DNA from: Paenibacillus sp. OV219 | GTDB taxonomy: Bacteria > Bacillota > Bacilli > Paenibacillales > Paenibacillaceae | DNA length: 64,000 nucleotides | Direction of reading: 5' to 3' | Assembly (NCBI RefSeq): GCF_900110075.1 | Contig: NZ_FOCJ01000002.1 | Coordinates: forward strand, 248,001-312,000 | Part shown: in pieces, positions 3,606 to 18,249 of the stretch | How the letters are laid out: every line of letters starts with the position of its first letter | Numbering within the stretch: the first letter of the stretch is position 1 | Program-made: the position numbers and the translations under genes | The notes under the pieces: model-generated | The model's database searches: none | What the model saw: the letters and a program-made list of their open reading frames with translations, nothing else | Told to the model about the DNA's origin: nothing

Positions 3606-3657
3606 CAATGTAGAGATTGAATAATTCAATTCACACTTGCATAGGGAGTTGATACTT

Positions 3658-4083
3658 CTGAAATATCCACCGCCACAGCAATGCCCGGTATGCGAAAGCA
3701 AGCTGACGATTCAGGAGCTGAAGTGCGATCATTGCACGACAGTGATTAGAGGGAATTTCGAATCGACCAGACTCGCTTCACTGAACGGGGAACAGTTGCA
3801 TTTTGTCGAAGTGTTCTTGAAGGTACGCGGCAACATCCGCGAGATGGAGAAGGAGCTTAGCGTCTCGTATCCGACAGTGAGGAATCGGCTCGATCAGATC
3901 GTAGACACACTCGGATTCCAATCTTGGCCTGCAGCAGCACCAGCAGCACCAGCAGCACCAGCTGCGCCGCCCGAGCAAGCTGCCTCGGAAGATTCGCAAC
4001 GGAAGCAGATTTTGTCGAAGCTGAATGAAGGCGAAATTACGGTAGAAGAAGCGTTGAAGTTAATCGGAGCCAGTAAAAAATAG
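3658..4083 (+). CDS. DUF2089-family zinc-ribbon/HTH protein
   Basis: A small protein of about 141 residues. The N-terminus has two zinc-ribbon knuckles, CPVC and CDHC. A helix-turn-helix-like segment follows (SVSYPTVRNRLDQIVDTLGF), then an Ala-Pro linker made of repeated GCACCAGCA codons. It ends with a short helical motif (LNEGEITVEEALKLIGA) resembling the start of the next protein. Start choice: AGGGAG at 3643-3648 sits 9 bases before CTG 3658, which is unusual; upstream TTG codons (3637, 3649) are in frame but lack a well-placed Shine-Dalgarno. Probably a DNA-binding regulator co-transcribed with the DUF4097 gene, as for yvlB-type pairs. The exact role is unknown. Confidence 0.8.
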   Translation: MKYPPPQQCPVCESKLTIQELKCDHCTTVIRGNFESTRLASLNGEQLHFVEVFLKVRGNIREMEKELSVSYPTVRNRLDQIVDTLGFQSWPAAAPAAPAAPAAPPEQAASEDSQRKQILSKLNEGEITVEEALKLIGASKK

Positions 4084-4098
4084 GAGGAATGGTGAGCG

Positions 4099-5283
4099 AT
4101 GCACGAAGAGCGGACGATGATTATTCGAATGATTGAGGAAGGTAAGATTACCGCGGAGCAAGGCTTGGCGCTGCTGGAAGCGCTCGAGCAATCACAACCA
4201 CAATCTCAAGCTGCGCCTACGCTAGAGCAACAGGAAGATCAAGATGAAGAGCATGAGCTGTCCGAAAGTGGACAAGCTGCTGAGTGGACAAGCACCTTCG
4301 ATGCATCCAGAATCGAGCGGATGGAATTTACCGCGTATGACGGTTCGATCAAATATCAAACCTGGGATGAATCATACACAGAGGTCAAGGTGACTTTCAG
4401 AGAGCTGAATGGGTGGAGTGTGCGGGCGCTGAACGAATGGCTCAATCAGTCAATCTTAGTAAGTCGAAGCGAGGAACGATACATATGGACGATGAAGCCG
4501 GCGGACAATGATCGTGATCGTGAACTAGAGAATGGAATTGTGATTACCATCCATGTTCCTGAGACGCAGAGCTTTGAGTATTTCAAAGCGACGACGATGA
4601 ACGGAACTCTCAAGATCGACAAGCTGCTATCTGAAACGGCCGAGCTTACAACGAATAACGGTGCAATTAAGATGAATGACACTAGGCTAGAGAATCTTAA
4701 ATCGACATCTATGAATGGTGCGATTAAGCTCGAATCTGGGATTATGGAAACGGCAGAGCTGAAGACGACGAACGGCAAGATTCACGTTAGTGGCAAGTAC
4801 GAGAAGCTTAATTGCCATACAACTAACGGCAAGATTGCGCTGCATGATCTAATCGCGGAACAGGTTGACCTTCATACGCAGAACGGGAATATTGACGCGG
4901 CTGCTGCTTTTGAACAAATGGCTTGCAAGACGCAGAACGGGGCCATTAGTGTCCAAGTTCGAAGAAGCGGAGAGACAGAGCAGCGTAAAGAAACGTTCAA
5001 TGGTGAACTGATGTCTGAACTGCAAGCTGAGACGCAGAACGGTGCAATCAACATTGTGTACGAGGAAGGCGTTATCGGCGTCTGCGGCGAGTTTAAATTC
5101 AGTCGGGGAAGAGCGAGCTGCATGCTGAACGGGGAGACGTTCGCTGATATGCAAGGTGAAGGCGATAACCAGACAATTGCTTTTCGCCAAGGGGATGAGG
5201 AGTACCACCGCCTTGACGTAACGACGTCTAACGGGGCGATTCACGTGGAGACAATCCCTGTAAAAAACCTGTTGCCATCCTAA
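4099..5283 (+). CDS. DUF4097-family beta-helix protein with N-terminal YvlB/LiaX-type motif
   Basis: A protein of 394 residues with no signal peptide or membrane segment. Residues 1-30 carry the short helical motif also found at the end of the preceding protein (MIEEGKITAEQGLALLEALE). From about residue 160 there are nine turns of a degenerate 18-22 residue repeat centred on T-x-NG-x-I (TNNGAIKM, TTNGKIHV, TQNGNIDA and so on), the DUF4097 right-handed beta-solenoid. TAGGAGG at 4081-4087 precedes the ATG. Relatives in Bacillus and Enterococcus (YvlB, LiaX) belong to cell-envelope-stress regulons; a similar role is inferred. Confidence 0.8.
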   Translation: MHEERTMIIRMIEEGKITAEQGLALLEALEQSQPQSQAAPTLEQQEDQDEEHELSESGQAAEWTSTFDASRIERMEFTAYDGSIKYQTWDESYTEVKVTFRELNGWSVRALNEWLNQSILVSRSEERYIWTMKPADNDRDRELENGIVITIHVPETQSFEYFKATTMNGTLKIDKLLSETAELTTNNGAIKMNDTRLENLKSTSMNGAIKLESGIMETAELKTTNGKIHVSGKYEKLNCHTTNGKIALHDLIAEQVDLHTQNGNIDAAAAFEQMACKTQNGAISVQVRRSGETEQRKETFNGELMSELQAETQNGAINIVYEEGVIGVCGEFKFSRGRASCMLNGETFADMQGEGDNQTIAFRQGDEEYHRLDVTTSNGAIHVETIPVKNLLPS

Positions 5284-5312
5284 TAAATGGATGCTAACAT
5301 GTTACATTAAAC

Positions 5313-5405
5313 GGAAGGGTTTCTAGGGATCCGCGAATGGGCGAACCGAGCGAAACCGGCTAACGACGATAGTCAAGCTACACCGTAGGGATAAAAGACC
5401 TTCGG
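5313..5405 (+). promoter_or_regulatory. ykkC-family riboswitch candidate (subtype unresolved)
   Basis: The leader contains, in order, blocks that resemble the ykkC consensus: CTAGGGATCCG (5323-5333), ACCGAGCGAA, CTACACCG and AGGGATAAAAGACC. GAAGGGTTT (5314-5322) can pair with AAAGACCTTC (5394-5403) to close a P1 stem. That same 3' strand also pairs with 5440-5450 to form a terminator, the usual layout of a ligand-ON switch. ykkC RNAs bind guanidine, ppGpp, PRPP or ADP depending on subtype, which cannot be assigned by eye. The gene downstream is an ABC-2 exporter ATPase. Confidence 0.62.
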
Positions 5406-5452
5406 CAAGTTCCGCCTCAATTGACAGGCGGTGCTCGCAGAAGGTCTTTTTT
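5393..5452 (+). terminator. Terminator overlapping the riboswitch P1 strand
   Basis: AAAAGACCTTC (5393-5403) pairs with GAAGGTCTTTT (5440-5450); an inner helix CCGCCT/AGGCGG extends it, and T residues follow. The 5' arm is the 3' side of the aptamer P1, so the two structures exclude each other. Confidence 0.85.
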
Positions 5453-5509
5453 GTGTTATTCGCTGAAGTGGCACCGCCGAACGAGGAGCAGACAGGGGGA
5501 GAAACAAAG

Positions 5510-6505
5510 ATGGCAATGGTAGCACTTCAGACACATGCACTTAGCAAAAGATTCTCGGTTAAACAGAAACGCGCAGGATTAACCGGCAGTCTCCGCTCTC
5601 TGATCAAGCCGGAATGGGAAGAGAAAATTGCGGTGAAAAGCATCGACCTGACGGTGCAACGCGGCGAGATGGTCGCTTTCCTCGGACCGAACGGAGCAGG
5701 CAAATCGACGACGATCAAGATGCTGACTGGCATTCTGCATCCATCCTCCGGTAAAGCGGAGGTGCTCGGTCTGACGCCTTGGCGCGAACGAACGAAGCTG
5801 GCTTACCGAATTGGCGCCGTATTCGGGCAGAAGTCACAGCTGTGGTATCACCTTCCGCCGATCGACACCTTCGATCTGATCAGCCGCATCTATGAGCTGG
5901 ACCGTAGCGAATACGCGGCTCGGCGGGATGATCTTATCGAACGCTTCGAGCTTGGACCGTATTTGAACATTCCTGTTCGTAAGCTCTCGCTCGGTGAGCG
6001 GATGCGCTGCGAAATCGCAGTATCCTTCCTGCATCGTCCGGAACTGCTCTTCCTCGATGAGCCAACGATCGGCCTCGACGTCGTCGTGAAGCAGCGTATT
6101 CGCGAGCTCATTCGCGAAGTGAACAAAGAAGAAGGGATGACGGTGTTTCTGACATCCCATGATGCCGGCGATGTCGAGGAGCTGTGCTCGCGAGCGGTCG
6201 TGATTCATCATGGCGGTATTTTGCTCGATGCGCCTGTAGATCGGCTCAAGCGGGAAGTGCTGAGCCGCAAAATCATTTCACTCACCTTGGCAAATGGGTT
6301 TCACGCAGCGATGCTTCCGAGCATGATTGGCACGGAGGTTGTGCAATCAGAGGGCAGACGCGTGAAGCTCGCCGTCGACTTGCGGCAAACGGAGATCGAA
6401 ACGGTGCTCGGCAGCTTAATCGGTCAGTTCCGCCTGGAGGATGTCACGGTTGAAGATCCGCCTATGGAAGAGATCATCTCACATATTTATGGATCGGGAG
6501 GTTAG
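5510..6505 (+). CDS. ABC-2 type exporter ATP-binding protein (COG4586-like)
   Basis: ATPase of 331 residues powering two following permeases. Walker A is GPNGAGKST, the signature LSLGERMR, Walker B LLFLDEPTIGLD and the switch histidine TSHD. The rather long N-terminal part and C-terminal domain after the H-loop fit the COG4586 subgroup found with COG4587 and COG3694 permeases. The ATG at 5510 follows AGGGGGA with 9-base spacing; the open frame extends to 5453 but that region lies in the terminator. Transcription is probably governed by the riboswitch upstream. The substrate is unknown. Confidence 0.92.
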   Translation: MAMVALQTHALSKRFSVKQKRAGLTGSLRSLIKPEWEEKIAVKSIDLTVQRGEMVAFLGPNGAGKSTTIKMLTGILHPSSGKAEVLGLTPWRERTKLAYRIGAVFGQKSQLWYHLPPIDTFDLISRIYELDRSEYAARRDDLIERFELGPYLNIPVRKLSLGERMRCEIAVSFLHRPELLFLDEPTIGLDVVVKQRIRELIREVNKEEGMTVFLTSHDAGDVEELCSRAVVIHHGGILLDAPVDRLKREVLSRKIISLTLANGFHAAMLPSMIGTEVVQSEGRRVKLAVDLRQTEIETVLGSLIGQFRLEDVTVEDPPMEEIISHIYGSGG

Positions 6506-15773: not shown

Positions 15774-15850
15774 CGCGGGGTGGAGCAGCTCGGTAGCTCG
15801 TCGGGCTCATAACCCGAAGGCCGCAGGTTCAAATCCTGCCCCCGCAACCA
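15774..15850 (+). tRNA. tRNA-fMet (CAT), initiator
   Basis: A 77-base cloverleaf with encoded CCA. Two features identify the initiator: the first acceptor pair is a C1-A72 mismatch, and the anticodon stem has three consecutive G-C pairs (GGG/CCC) around CTCATAA. Confidence 0.96.
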
Positions 15851-15871
15851 ACCTTTCGATTATCATCGTAA

Positions 15872-15945
15872 GGGCCCTTAGCTCAGTTGGTTAGAGCGGT
15901 CGGCTCATAACCGATTGGTCGGGGGTTCGAGTCCCTCAGGGCCCA
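15872..15945 (+). tRNA. tRNA with CAT anticodon (probably Ile2, or elongator Met)
   Basis: Acceptor GGGCCCT pairs with AGGGCCC and the anticodon loop is CTCATAA. CCA is not encoded. The acceptor and anticodon-stem sequence resemble the lysidine-modified tRNA-Ile(CAU) of other bacteria more than the elongator Met tRNA. This cannot be settled without comparing the full tRNA set. Confidence 0.9.
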
Positions 15946-15970
15946 TCATTTCCTCAACCATAACTTTCAT

Positions 15971-16056
15971 GCCGGGGTGGCGGAACTGGCAGACGCACAG
16001 GACTTAAAATCCTGCGGTGGGTGACCACCGTACGGGTTCGATTCCCGTCCTCGGCA
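15971..16056 (+). tRNA. tRNA-Leu (TAA)
   Basis: An 86-base class II tRNA with long variable arm (GGTGGGTGACCACC). The anticodon loop ACTTAAAAT gives TAA. Acceptor GCCGGGG pairs with CCTCGGC using a wobble pair; no CCA is encoded. Its 3' three-quarters are repeated at 18135-18249. Confidence 0.95.
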
Positions 16057-18106: not shown

Positions 18107-18134
18107 CTGATGCTTTGGCACATGCCTGTTCAGC

Positions 18135-18249
18135 GAACTGGCAGACGCACAGGACTTAAAATCCTGCGGTGGGTGACCACCGTACGGGTTCGATTCCCGT
18201 CCTCGGCATCCAACAAGAAACCTTGATGAATCAAGGTTTTTTTTATTTT
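18135..18249 (+). repeat. Direct repeat copy 2: tRNA-Leu remnant and terminator
   Basis: Matches 15983-16096 and lacks the first 12 bases of tRNA-Leu, so it cannot form an acceptor stem. It marks the right end of the islet carrying the COG3044 ATPase and also supplies a terminator after that gene. Confidence 0.88.

Follow-up and report, generated by a model that had tools for sequence, protein, structure and literature searches.

An RNA switch that very probably senses ppGpp precedes a three-gene ABC exporter operon in the window (the whole analysed stretch of 64,000 nucleotides), and it is a well-conserved and otherwise ordinary member of its class. In our opinion, positions 5311–5416 are in all likelihood a ykkC subtype 2a aptamer for (p)ppGpp, the ligand-bound form of which would block an intrinsic terminator and turn the exporter on. 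Membership in the ykkC family, a subtype-typical sequence, the helix P0, an overlapping terminator and a strict link to one clade of NatA ATPases were established by computation. The initial annotation had read the leader as a riboswitch of the ykkC family with strands in common with a terminator, and this reading was borne out; the class of the ligand, which had been left open, may now be narrowed to subtype 2a, i.e., (p)ppGpp.

As natA transporters are already grouped in subtype 2a (PMC5912903) and a Clostridiales natA aptamer for (p)ppGpp is known, the element may be regarded as a further, so far unannotated example of an established class, and its target gene is of a type already on record. 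The present analysis adds a one-to-one link to one NatA clade, found over 59 genomes, and another ykkC type situated before orthologues of the exporter. A likely signal, (p)ppGpp, is assigned to the exporter, and the question of what a starving cell must pump out becomes testable in culturable Paenibacillus-like bacteria. A search of the open-access literature found no paper joining Paenibacillus and a ppGpp riboswitch.

Locus and Exporter Operon

The ABC-2 exporter operon that had been placed downstream of the leader was confirmed and consists of an ATPase and two PF06182 permeases (Table 1). A ribosome site, GGGGGAG, lies at 5495–5501 ahead of the NatA-type ATPase, the reading frame of which is also open from an alternative upstream GTG at 5453. 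The label COG4586 for this protein is the naming of the initial annotation, and a PDB search returned generic ABC ATPases only. The consensus scan that gave the promoter found a mean of 0.3 promoter-like sites in shuffled sequence, and transcription is expected to start near 5307.

We take DUF990 to be the same family as PF06182. The statement that the exporter has no known substrate was correct only in part: the permeases are of PF06182, and DUF990-family transporters were filed as the ethyl viologen exporter family in a survey of B. cereus (PMC5417439). The exporters grouped under TCDB 3.A.1.141 (the ethyl viologen family, DUF990) are, like the operon of the window, composed of one ATPase and two PF06182 permeases, a likeness at the level of family content.

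Directly upstream, at 3637–5283, the window encodes two proteins with SHOCT-like domains, a zinc-ribbon/HTH protein of the DUF2089 family and a DUF4097 protein; the latter, second of the pair, shows a weak resemblance to LiaX/LiaG, below the cut-off.

Table 1. Positions of the leader elements, the operon genes and the leaders of the second ykkC variant
Feature	Position	Strand	Basis or remark
Sigma-A-like promoter TTGCCA-17-TAACAT	5272–5300	+	Consensus match only, 9 of 12 positions
ykkC subtype 2a ((p)ppGpp-type) aptamer, predicted	5311–5416	+	R2 76.1 bits, R3 51.4 bits, Rfam guanidine-I 24.9 bits (below cut-off)
P0, 5' strand CGGAA	5312–5316	+	Pairs with 5410–5414; A1 pair counts and fold
P1	5318–5357	+	5318–5323/5352–5357
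P1a	within 5318–5357	+	5326–5327/5346–5347
P1b	within 5318–5357	+	5332–5334/5341–5343
ykkC block CTAGGGATCCG	5323–5333	+	
ykkC block ACCGAGCGAA	5345–5354	+	
P2 hairpin	5359–5378	+	Sequence variable
ykkC block CTACACCG	5378–5385	+	
Ligand strand ACACCGU	5380–5386	+	
ykkC block AGGGATAAAAG	5387–5397	+	
P3	within 5380–5401	+	5387–5389/5399–5401, loop GAUAAAAGA
Intrinsic terminator	5393–5452	+	5' arm 5393–5417, loop 5418–5425, 3' arm 5426–5450, U-run 5447–5452
P0, 3' strand UUCCG	5410–5414	+	Also within the 5' arm of the terminator; A1 pair counts and fold
NatA-type ABC ATPase	5510–6505	+	331 aa from ATG at 5510
ABC-2 permease, PF06182	6510–7340	+	
ABC-2 permease, PF06182	7324–8160	+	
Variant leader	L135:1176–1308		
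Variant leader	L141:1274–1380		
Variant-like leader (Clostridium)	L159:1219–1321		
Variant-like leader (Clostridiales)	L181:1368–1450		

Structure of the Aptamer

All four blocks close to the ykkC consensus were found in the place and order in which they had been reported. Folded alone, the aptamer forms P0, P1, P2 and P3 in the computed structure; the closing helix equivalent to P0 is named P1 in PMC10687018.

In the alignment of 27 natA leaders (A1), 94.1% of the cells of this structure are paired, compared with 90.2% in shuffles and 24.6–50.4% with slid partners. Seven pairs, including the outer pair of P0 and one pair of P1, change on both sides, a number reached by 9 of 500 shuffles, and the count of further pair types is not unusual, being reached by 143 of 500; the rows of A1 are related, so that the pair counts are less independent than they appear. 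Helix P0 is paired in 98.5% of cells, with one of its five pairs changing on both sides and four invariant. Among the 26 distinct A1 sequences its outer pair is C-G in 19, U-A in 5 and unpaired in 2, and one pair of P1 is U-A in 20, C-G in 4 and U-G in 2. The P2 helices are paired in 76–91% of cells, which is partly driven by the alignment. The alignment of amino-acid-type leaders described below (A3) supports both P0, where three of the five pairs change on both sides although 9 of the 24 leaders leave the outer pair open, and P3, where two of the three pairs do so. The ykkC blocks, ACACCGU, AUAAAAGACCU and the end CGG.AAGUUCC.CC are invariant in A1, and P1b and P2 vary in both sequence and length.

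Terminator and Proposed Switching

The terminator has a minimum free energy of −32.4 kcal/mol, below all 100 base shuffles (mean −13.2), and engages 21 of the last 24 nucleotides of the aptamer (5393–5416) in the computed fold. The full leader folds as the terminator, with loss of P0 and P3. A consensus scan missed the terminator at this locus, probably owing to the interruption of the stem. In all 27 leaders a terminator was predicted with an energy of −29.6 to −43.4 kcal/mol, in each case below all 100 base shuffles of its own, and using 20–23 of the last 24 aptamer nucleotides.

It had been proposed that the strand AAAAGACCTTC (5393–5403) either closes the aptamer as P1 or forms the terminator. 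The mutual exclusion holds, because both this strand, which starts the 5' arm of the terminator, and the true closing strand lie within that arm. The closing role does not: AAAAGACCTTC is made up of loop 3, the 3' strand of P3 and two further bases, and the aptamer is closed on its 3' side by UUCCG (5410–5414), pairing with CGGAA (5312–5316). Pairing of CCUUC (5399–5403) with GAAGG (5314–5318), apparently the closing helix meant earlier, was rejected; relatives keep P0 (UUCC) and P3.

In a ppGpp riboswitch of another bacterium, the ligand steadies the closing helix, called P1 there, against the terminator (PMC10687018). By analogy with this precedent, the leader of the window is probably an ON switch raising expression of the exporter in the stringent response, and both the ligand and the ON direction are drawn from published work on relatives. 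When ligand is lacking, P0 would be weak, and its 3' strand together with that of P3 would be captured by the 3' arm 5426–5450, so that the terminator would form and transcription would halt ahead of natA. With (p)ppGpp bound, P0 and P3 would be held, the terminator would be unable to complete, and RNA polymerase could proceed into the three-gene ABC exporter, which would thereby be induced during the stringent response.

The motif GCUUUA stands right after the U-run in 20 of the 27 leaders, often with AAAGC or AAGC soon after, and a small hairpin is possible there. Just 3' of the U-run, at 5453–5465, the window has GUGUUAUU.

Profile Searches

With curated cut-offs, an Rfam search of the whole window gave five tRNA matches and nothing more. 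A weak partial tRNA match (31.3 bits) lies at 18132–18200, 2 kb past a cluster of three good tRNAs (15774–16056). A permissive search of 5100–5600 matched the guanidine-I family (RF00442) at 5312–5409 with 24.9 bits (E 0.021), the gathering cut-off being 63; with E values of up to 10 admitted, only two more families matched, neither of them a riboswitch, and hence none for ppGpp or PRPP aptamers. Searched across the own genome of the window, RF00442 found two true copies, with 83.9 and 80.5 bits, and the window element came next (E 0.059). The true copies, L001 and L002, are situated at C22:38456–38567 and C34:1132463–1132576. The refuting condition set by the initial annotation, the lack of a significant covariance-model hit, would have misled with Rfam alone, where the single ykkC-type match was the sub-threshold guanidine-I; a custom model (R2, below) gave a significant match. 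This is also a gap in annotation: a leader that, like this one, exceeds the cut-off of no Rfam family would stay unannotated or be mistaken for a weak guanidine-I riboswitch.

Model R1 was built from A1, i.e., from the 27 natA leaders only, and run against 398 genomes from the phylum; a match at E ≤ 0.01 turned up in 184. Its matches lead ilvC, ilvE, genes for a TPP enzyme (ilvB-like) and glutamate-synthase-type proteins, livK-like genes and other natA genes across the phylum. The contexts of 29 other loci were named by HMM or BLAST in 14 cases and by eye from protein starts in 15. The named set includes amino-acid-type genes (ilvC, two ilvE-type aminotransferases, a TPP enzyme, a class-II glutamine amidotransferase and a glutamate-synthase domain protein), along with two livK-like genes, a sodium-dependent transporter, a DppB-like permease, three natA and one purE. 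The contexts judged by eye are mostly similar, with two further purE, two NCS2-like permeases and two ambiguous cases. Twenty lower matches, judged by eye, comprised ten of the purine type (six purE, one purC-like, purB and two NCS2-like permeases), eight of the ilv/leu type, one sodium-dependent transporter and one DppB-like permease.

Model R2 was made from 24 leaders of the ilv/leu/glt/liv type (A3) of phylum members outside the order of the window, with contexts named by HMM in 8 cases and by eye in 16; all natA leaders, the order of the window, ambiguous or other contexts and L067, an ilvB-like leader carrying a long insertion, were excluded. It scored 76.1 bits on the window (E 7.6e-17), and in the 6.1 Mb genome the window element had E 7.3e-15. 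Coming from a model built without the clade in question, these E values show that the element is no chance match. The remaining natA leaders of the order, 26 in number, scored 58.5–78.4 bits, and three left-out natA leaders of another genus 90.0–95.3 bits. No second ppGpp switch appeared in the own genome: R1 listed the window element alone, and R2 added only a guanidine-I copy with 24.5 bits, the second copy (29.0 bits) being absent from the genome list presumably through stricter filters.

Some R2 matches in relatives were set aside. Those of 70.7 bits (G041 C53) and 55.3 bits (G033) precede xpt-pbuX-like genes by eye and are therefore PRPP-like, and a 42.5-bit match in G021, ahead of an amino-acid permease, is guanidine-I-like by eye. 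The PRPP-like ykkC leaders ahead of xpt-pbuX-like genes (by eye) in two relatives are L230:60–183 and L231.

Pocket Positions and Choice of Ligand

Roles of residues were transferred to the window from PMC6031431 and PMC10687018 by our own alignment. The A of guanidine-I is replaced by a pyrimidine in subtypes 2a and 2b (PMC6031431), and this marker (the C49/A46 position) is C5351 in the window. All 27 A1 leaders have C here; among 30 R1 matches, 26 share this C and 4 have U, and the two guanidine-I controls carry A. C5381, invariant in the 27 leaders, is equated by inference with C75 (C69 in Cba) and should, by analogy, form a pair with the guanine in the ligand. PRPP aptamers conserve a G96, which pairs with C75, and ppGpp aptamers do not; in the G96A mutant, C75 pairs with the guanine of ppGpp (PMC6031431). 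As placed by alignment, the G96 position is C5403 in the window and C in all 27 A1 leaders, though the Rfam alignment may also be read with G5404 there. Seven listed Paenibacillus and Cohnella natA leaders outside A1 have the C marker (7/7) and mostly CACCGU (6/7), and five of them (L151, L152, L153, L155, L156) have G at the G96 place under the same alignment, as does one ilvB-like A3 leader (L063). The place is thus not conserved, as subtype 2a requires, although this makes no clean test.

Taken together, the marker, P0, the guanine-pairing C, the non-conserved G96 place, the match to the profile of amino-acid leaders and the predicted competing terminator are those of subtype 2a. Known riboswitches of this subtype (D. 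hafniense ilvE, Clostridiales bacterium taxon 876 and Clostridiales natA) have in common with the window P0–P3, the pyrimidine marker, the competition between closing helix and terminator and natA as a target. The leader of the window differs from them in a P1b as short as 3 bp, in being tied one-to-one to a single NatA clade within the order and in exceeding the cut-off of no Rfam family; compared with ilvE-type leaders, its joint between P3 and P0 is also shorter (8 nt versus 10–11 nt, by eye).

This short joint, as well as an approximately 10-fold preference of a Clostridiales natA aptamer for pppGpp over ppGpp (PMC12373219, citing earlier work), leaves some room for a subtype 2a fold preferring another guanosine phosphate, pppGpp or pGpp. 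We consider such a preference unlikely on balance, and it would refine the best explanation, not compete with it.

A PRPP riboswitch (subtype 2b) deserves attention as having the same fold with P0, and G at the 96 place in five of the seven listed Paenibacillus and Cohnella leaders, as aligned, is in its favour. Four purE leaders scored 72.7–78.4 bits with R2, level with the window, so that this model alone cannot separate ppGpp from PRPP. The separation is provided by the difference between R2 and a third model, R3, constructed from 11 purine leaders (A4: nine purE, one purC-like and one purB). R3 still gave 51.4 bits on the window, 36.2–50.9 on the 26 other natA leaders of the order, 55.3–62.2 on the three natA leaders of the other genus, 55.5 and 63.7 on two ilv leaders, 27.5 and 23.9 on the guanidine-I copies and 104–115 on the four purE leaders, all of which are in its training set. 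R2 minus R3 is consequently +24.7 for the window and +32.6 to +34.7 for the three natA leaders of the other genus, but −31.7 to −36.9 for the purE leaders, with the reservation that they trained R3. Two positions past the 3' strand of P3, at the G96 place, all 11 purine leaders have G and the window has C. The purine leaders have CACCG(A/G) in 10 of 11 cases (the eleventh, purB, has CACCGUAG), whereas the window has CACCGU, as have 26 of the 30 R1 matches; the four exceptions are three purE and one NCS2-like permease. The operon of the window has no purine gene. The R3 scores, the pocket positions and the gene context decide for ppGpp, and a PRPP riboswitch is quite improbable here.

Still less credible is a ligand-free constitutive attenuator or relic, since all 27 leaders keep the pocket residues unchanged and differ in P1b and P2.

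Guanidine-I (subtype 1), which would switch on the exporter as it does SMR-type guanidine pumps, is the best Rfam family, shares the P1–P3 core blocks and typically controls exporters (PMC7266159), yet it may be practically dismissed: the score of the window is far below the 63-bit cut-off and those of the true copies, the marker is C and not A, ACACCG stands in place of ACACGG, P0 is present although the guanidine aptamer is without it (PMC6031431), and R2 gives 76.1 bits against 29.0 and 24.5 for the true copies. For the NDP riboswitch (2c), the comparison covered the gene context: the NUDIX or HAD hydrolase genes typical of it are absent from the operon of the window.

Conservation and Link to NatA

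A BLAST search with 5290–5460 over 59 genomes, own included, found the leader in 27, again with the own genome counted: 19 of 22 in the genus, 4 of 14 in the rest of the family and 4 of 23 in the rest of the order. In these leaders, the comparison of which had been suggested earlier as a check, the full motif and a predicted terminator are both present in 27 of 27. NatA-like ATPases occur in all 59 genomes. An orthologue of at least 61% identity (E 1.4e-129 or better) is present in 27, exactly the genomes with the leader; in the other 32 the best NatA match has E 7.9e-100 or weaker, with at most 48% identity among the matches listed.

Among 80 loci listed, the seven of at least 62% identity (Paenibacillus, Cohnella) all have the leader by R2, and the remaining 73 gave four R2 matches, with 76.9, 34.9, 23.5 and 19.4 bits. 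A NatA homologue at E ≤ 1e-95 to that of the other genus was found in 29 of 398 genomes of the phylum, and R2 matched in six of these loci (one is the window, three come from a single genus and two have the second variant described below), a few of the 29 having short upstream sequence. In the NatA tree, which has 58 rows, a single clade (100/100) holds the 27 proteins of the order, and those of the three genomes from the other genus make up a second one. This gives two changes of the label, although a single origin with losses may also account for the pattern.

Second ykkC Variant

Some other NatA orthologues are preceded by a different ykkC variant, ACACCC..GGA(A/G)AAAAGCC..GGAGUCUC, in which P0 is still possible. 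It was found in L135 and L141 and, by pattern, in L144, L148 and L149; two of the seven pattern matches (L143 and L146) lie inside coding sequence by eye and were rejected as chance, and a backward control pattern gave three matches. The tail GAGUCUC or a near form occurs in L159 and L181 and perhaps in L169 and L184 (spirochaetes), with different letters after ACAC in some of them, so that the ACAC block takes the forms ACACCC, ACACUU and ACACGU. The genes 3' of the variant, by eye or BLAST, are natA in L135 and L141 and one for a GNAT protein in L148; in L149 a HAD hydrolase is encoded farther downstream.

Subtype 2c (NDP) goes with NUDIX and HAD genes (PMC7266159), and the variant could be this subtype or one as yet unassigned. 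We tentatively put forward, as a rather doubtful reading, that DUF990-type NatA exporters gained ykkC-family control more than once and with different pocket types, namely the (p)ppGpp type in the order of the window and one other genus and the second variant in a set including Clostridium and perhaps spirochaetes. Should the two types respond to different nucleotides, the exporter would be a pump devoted to the starvation response, with the second variant an unassigned riboswitch class.

In L144 (6–314), a permease similar by eye to the second one of the window lies 416 nt downstream, with no natA between, and the exporter operon there may be rearranged.
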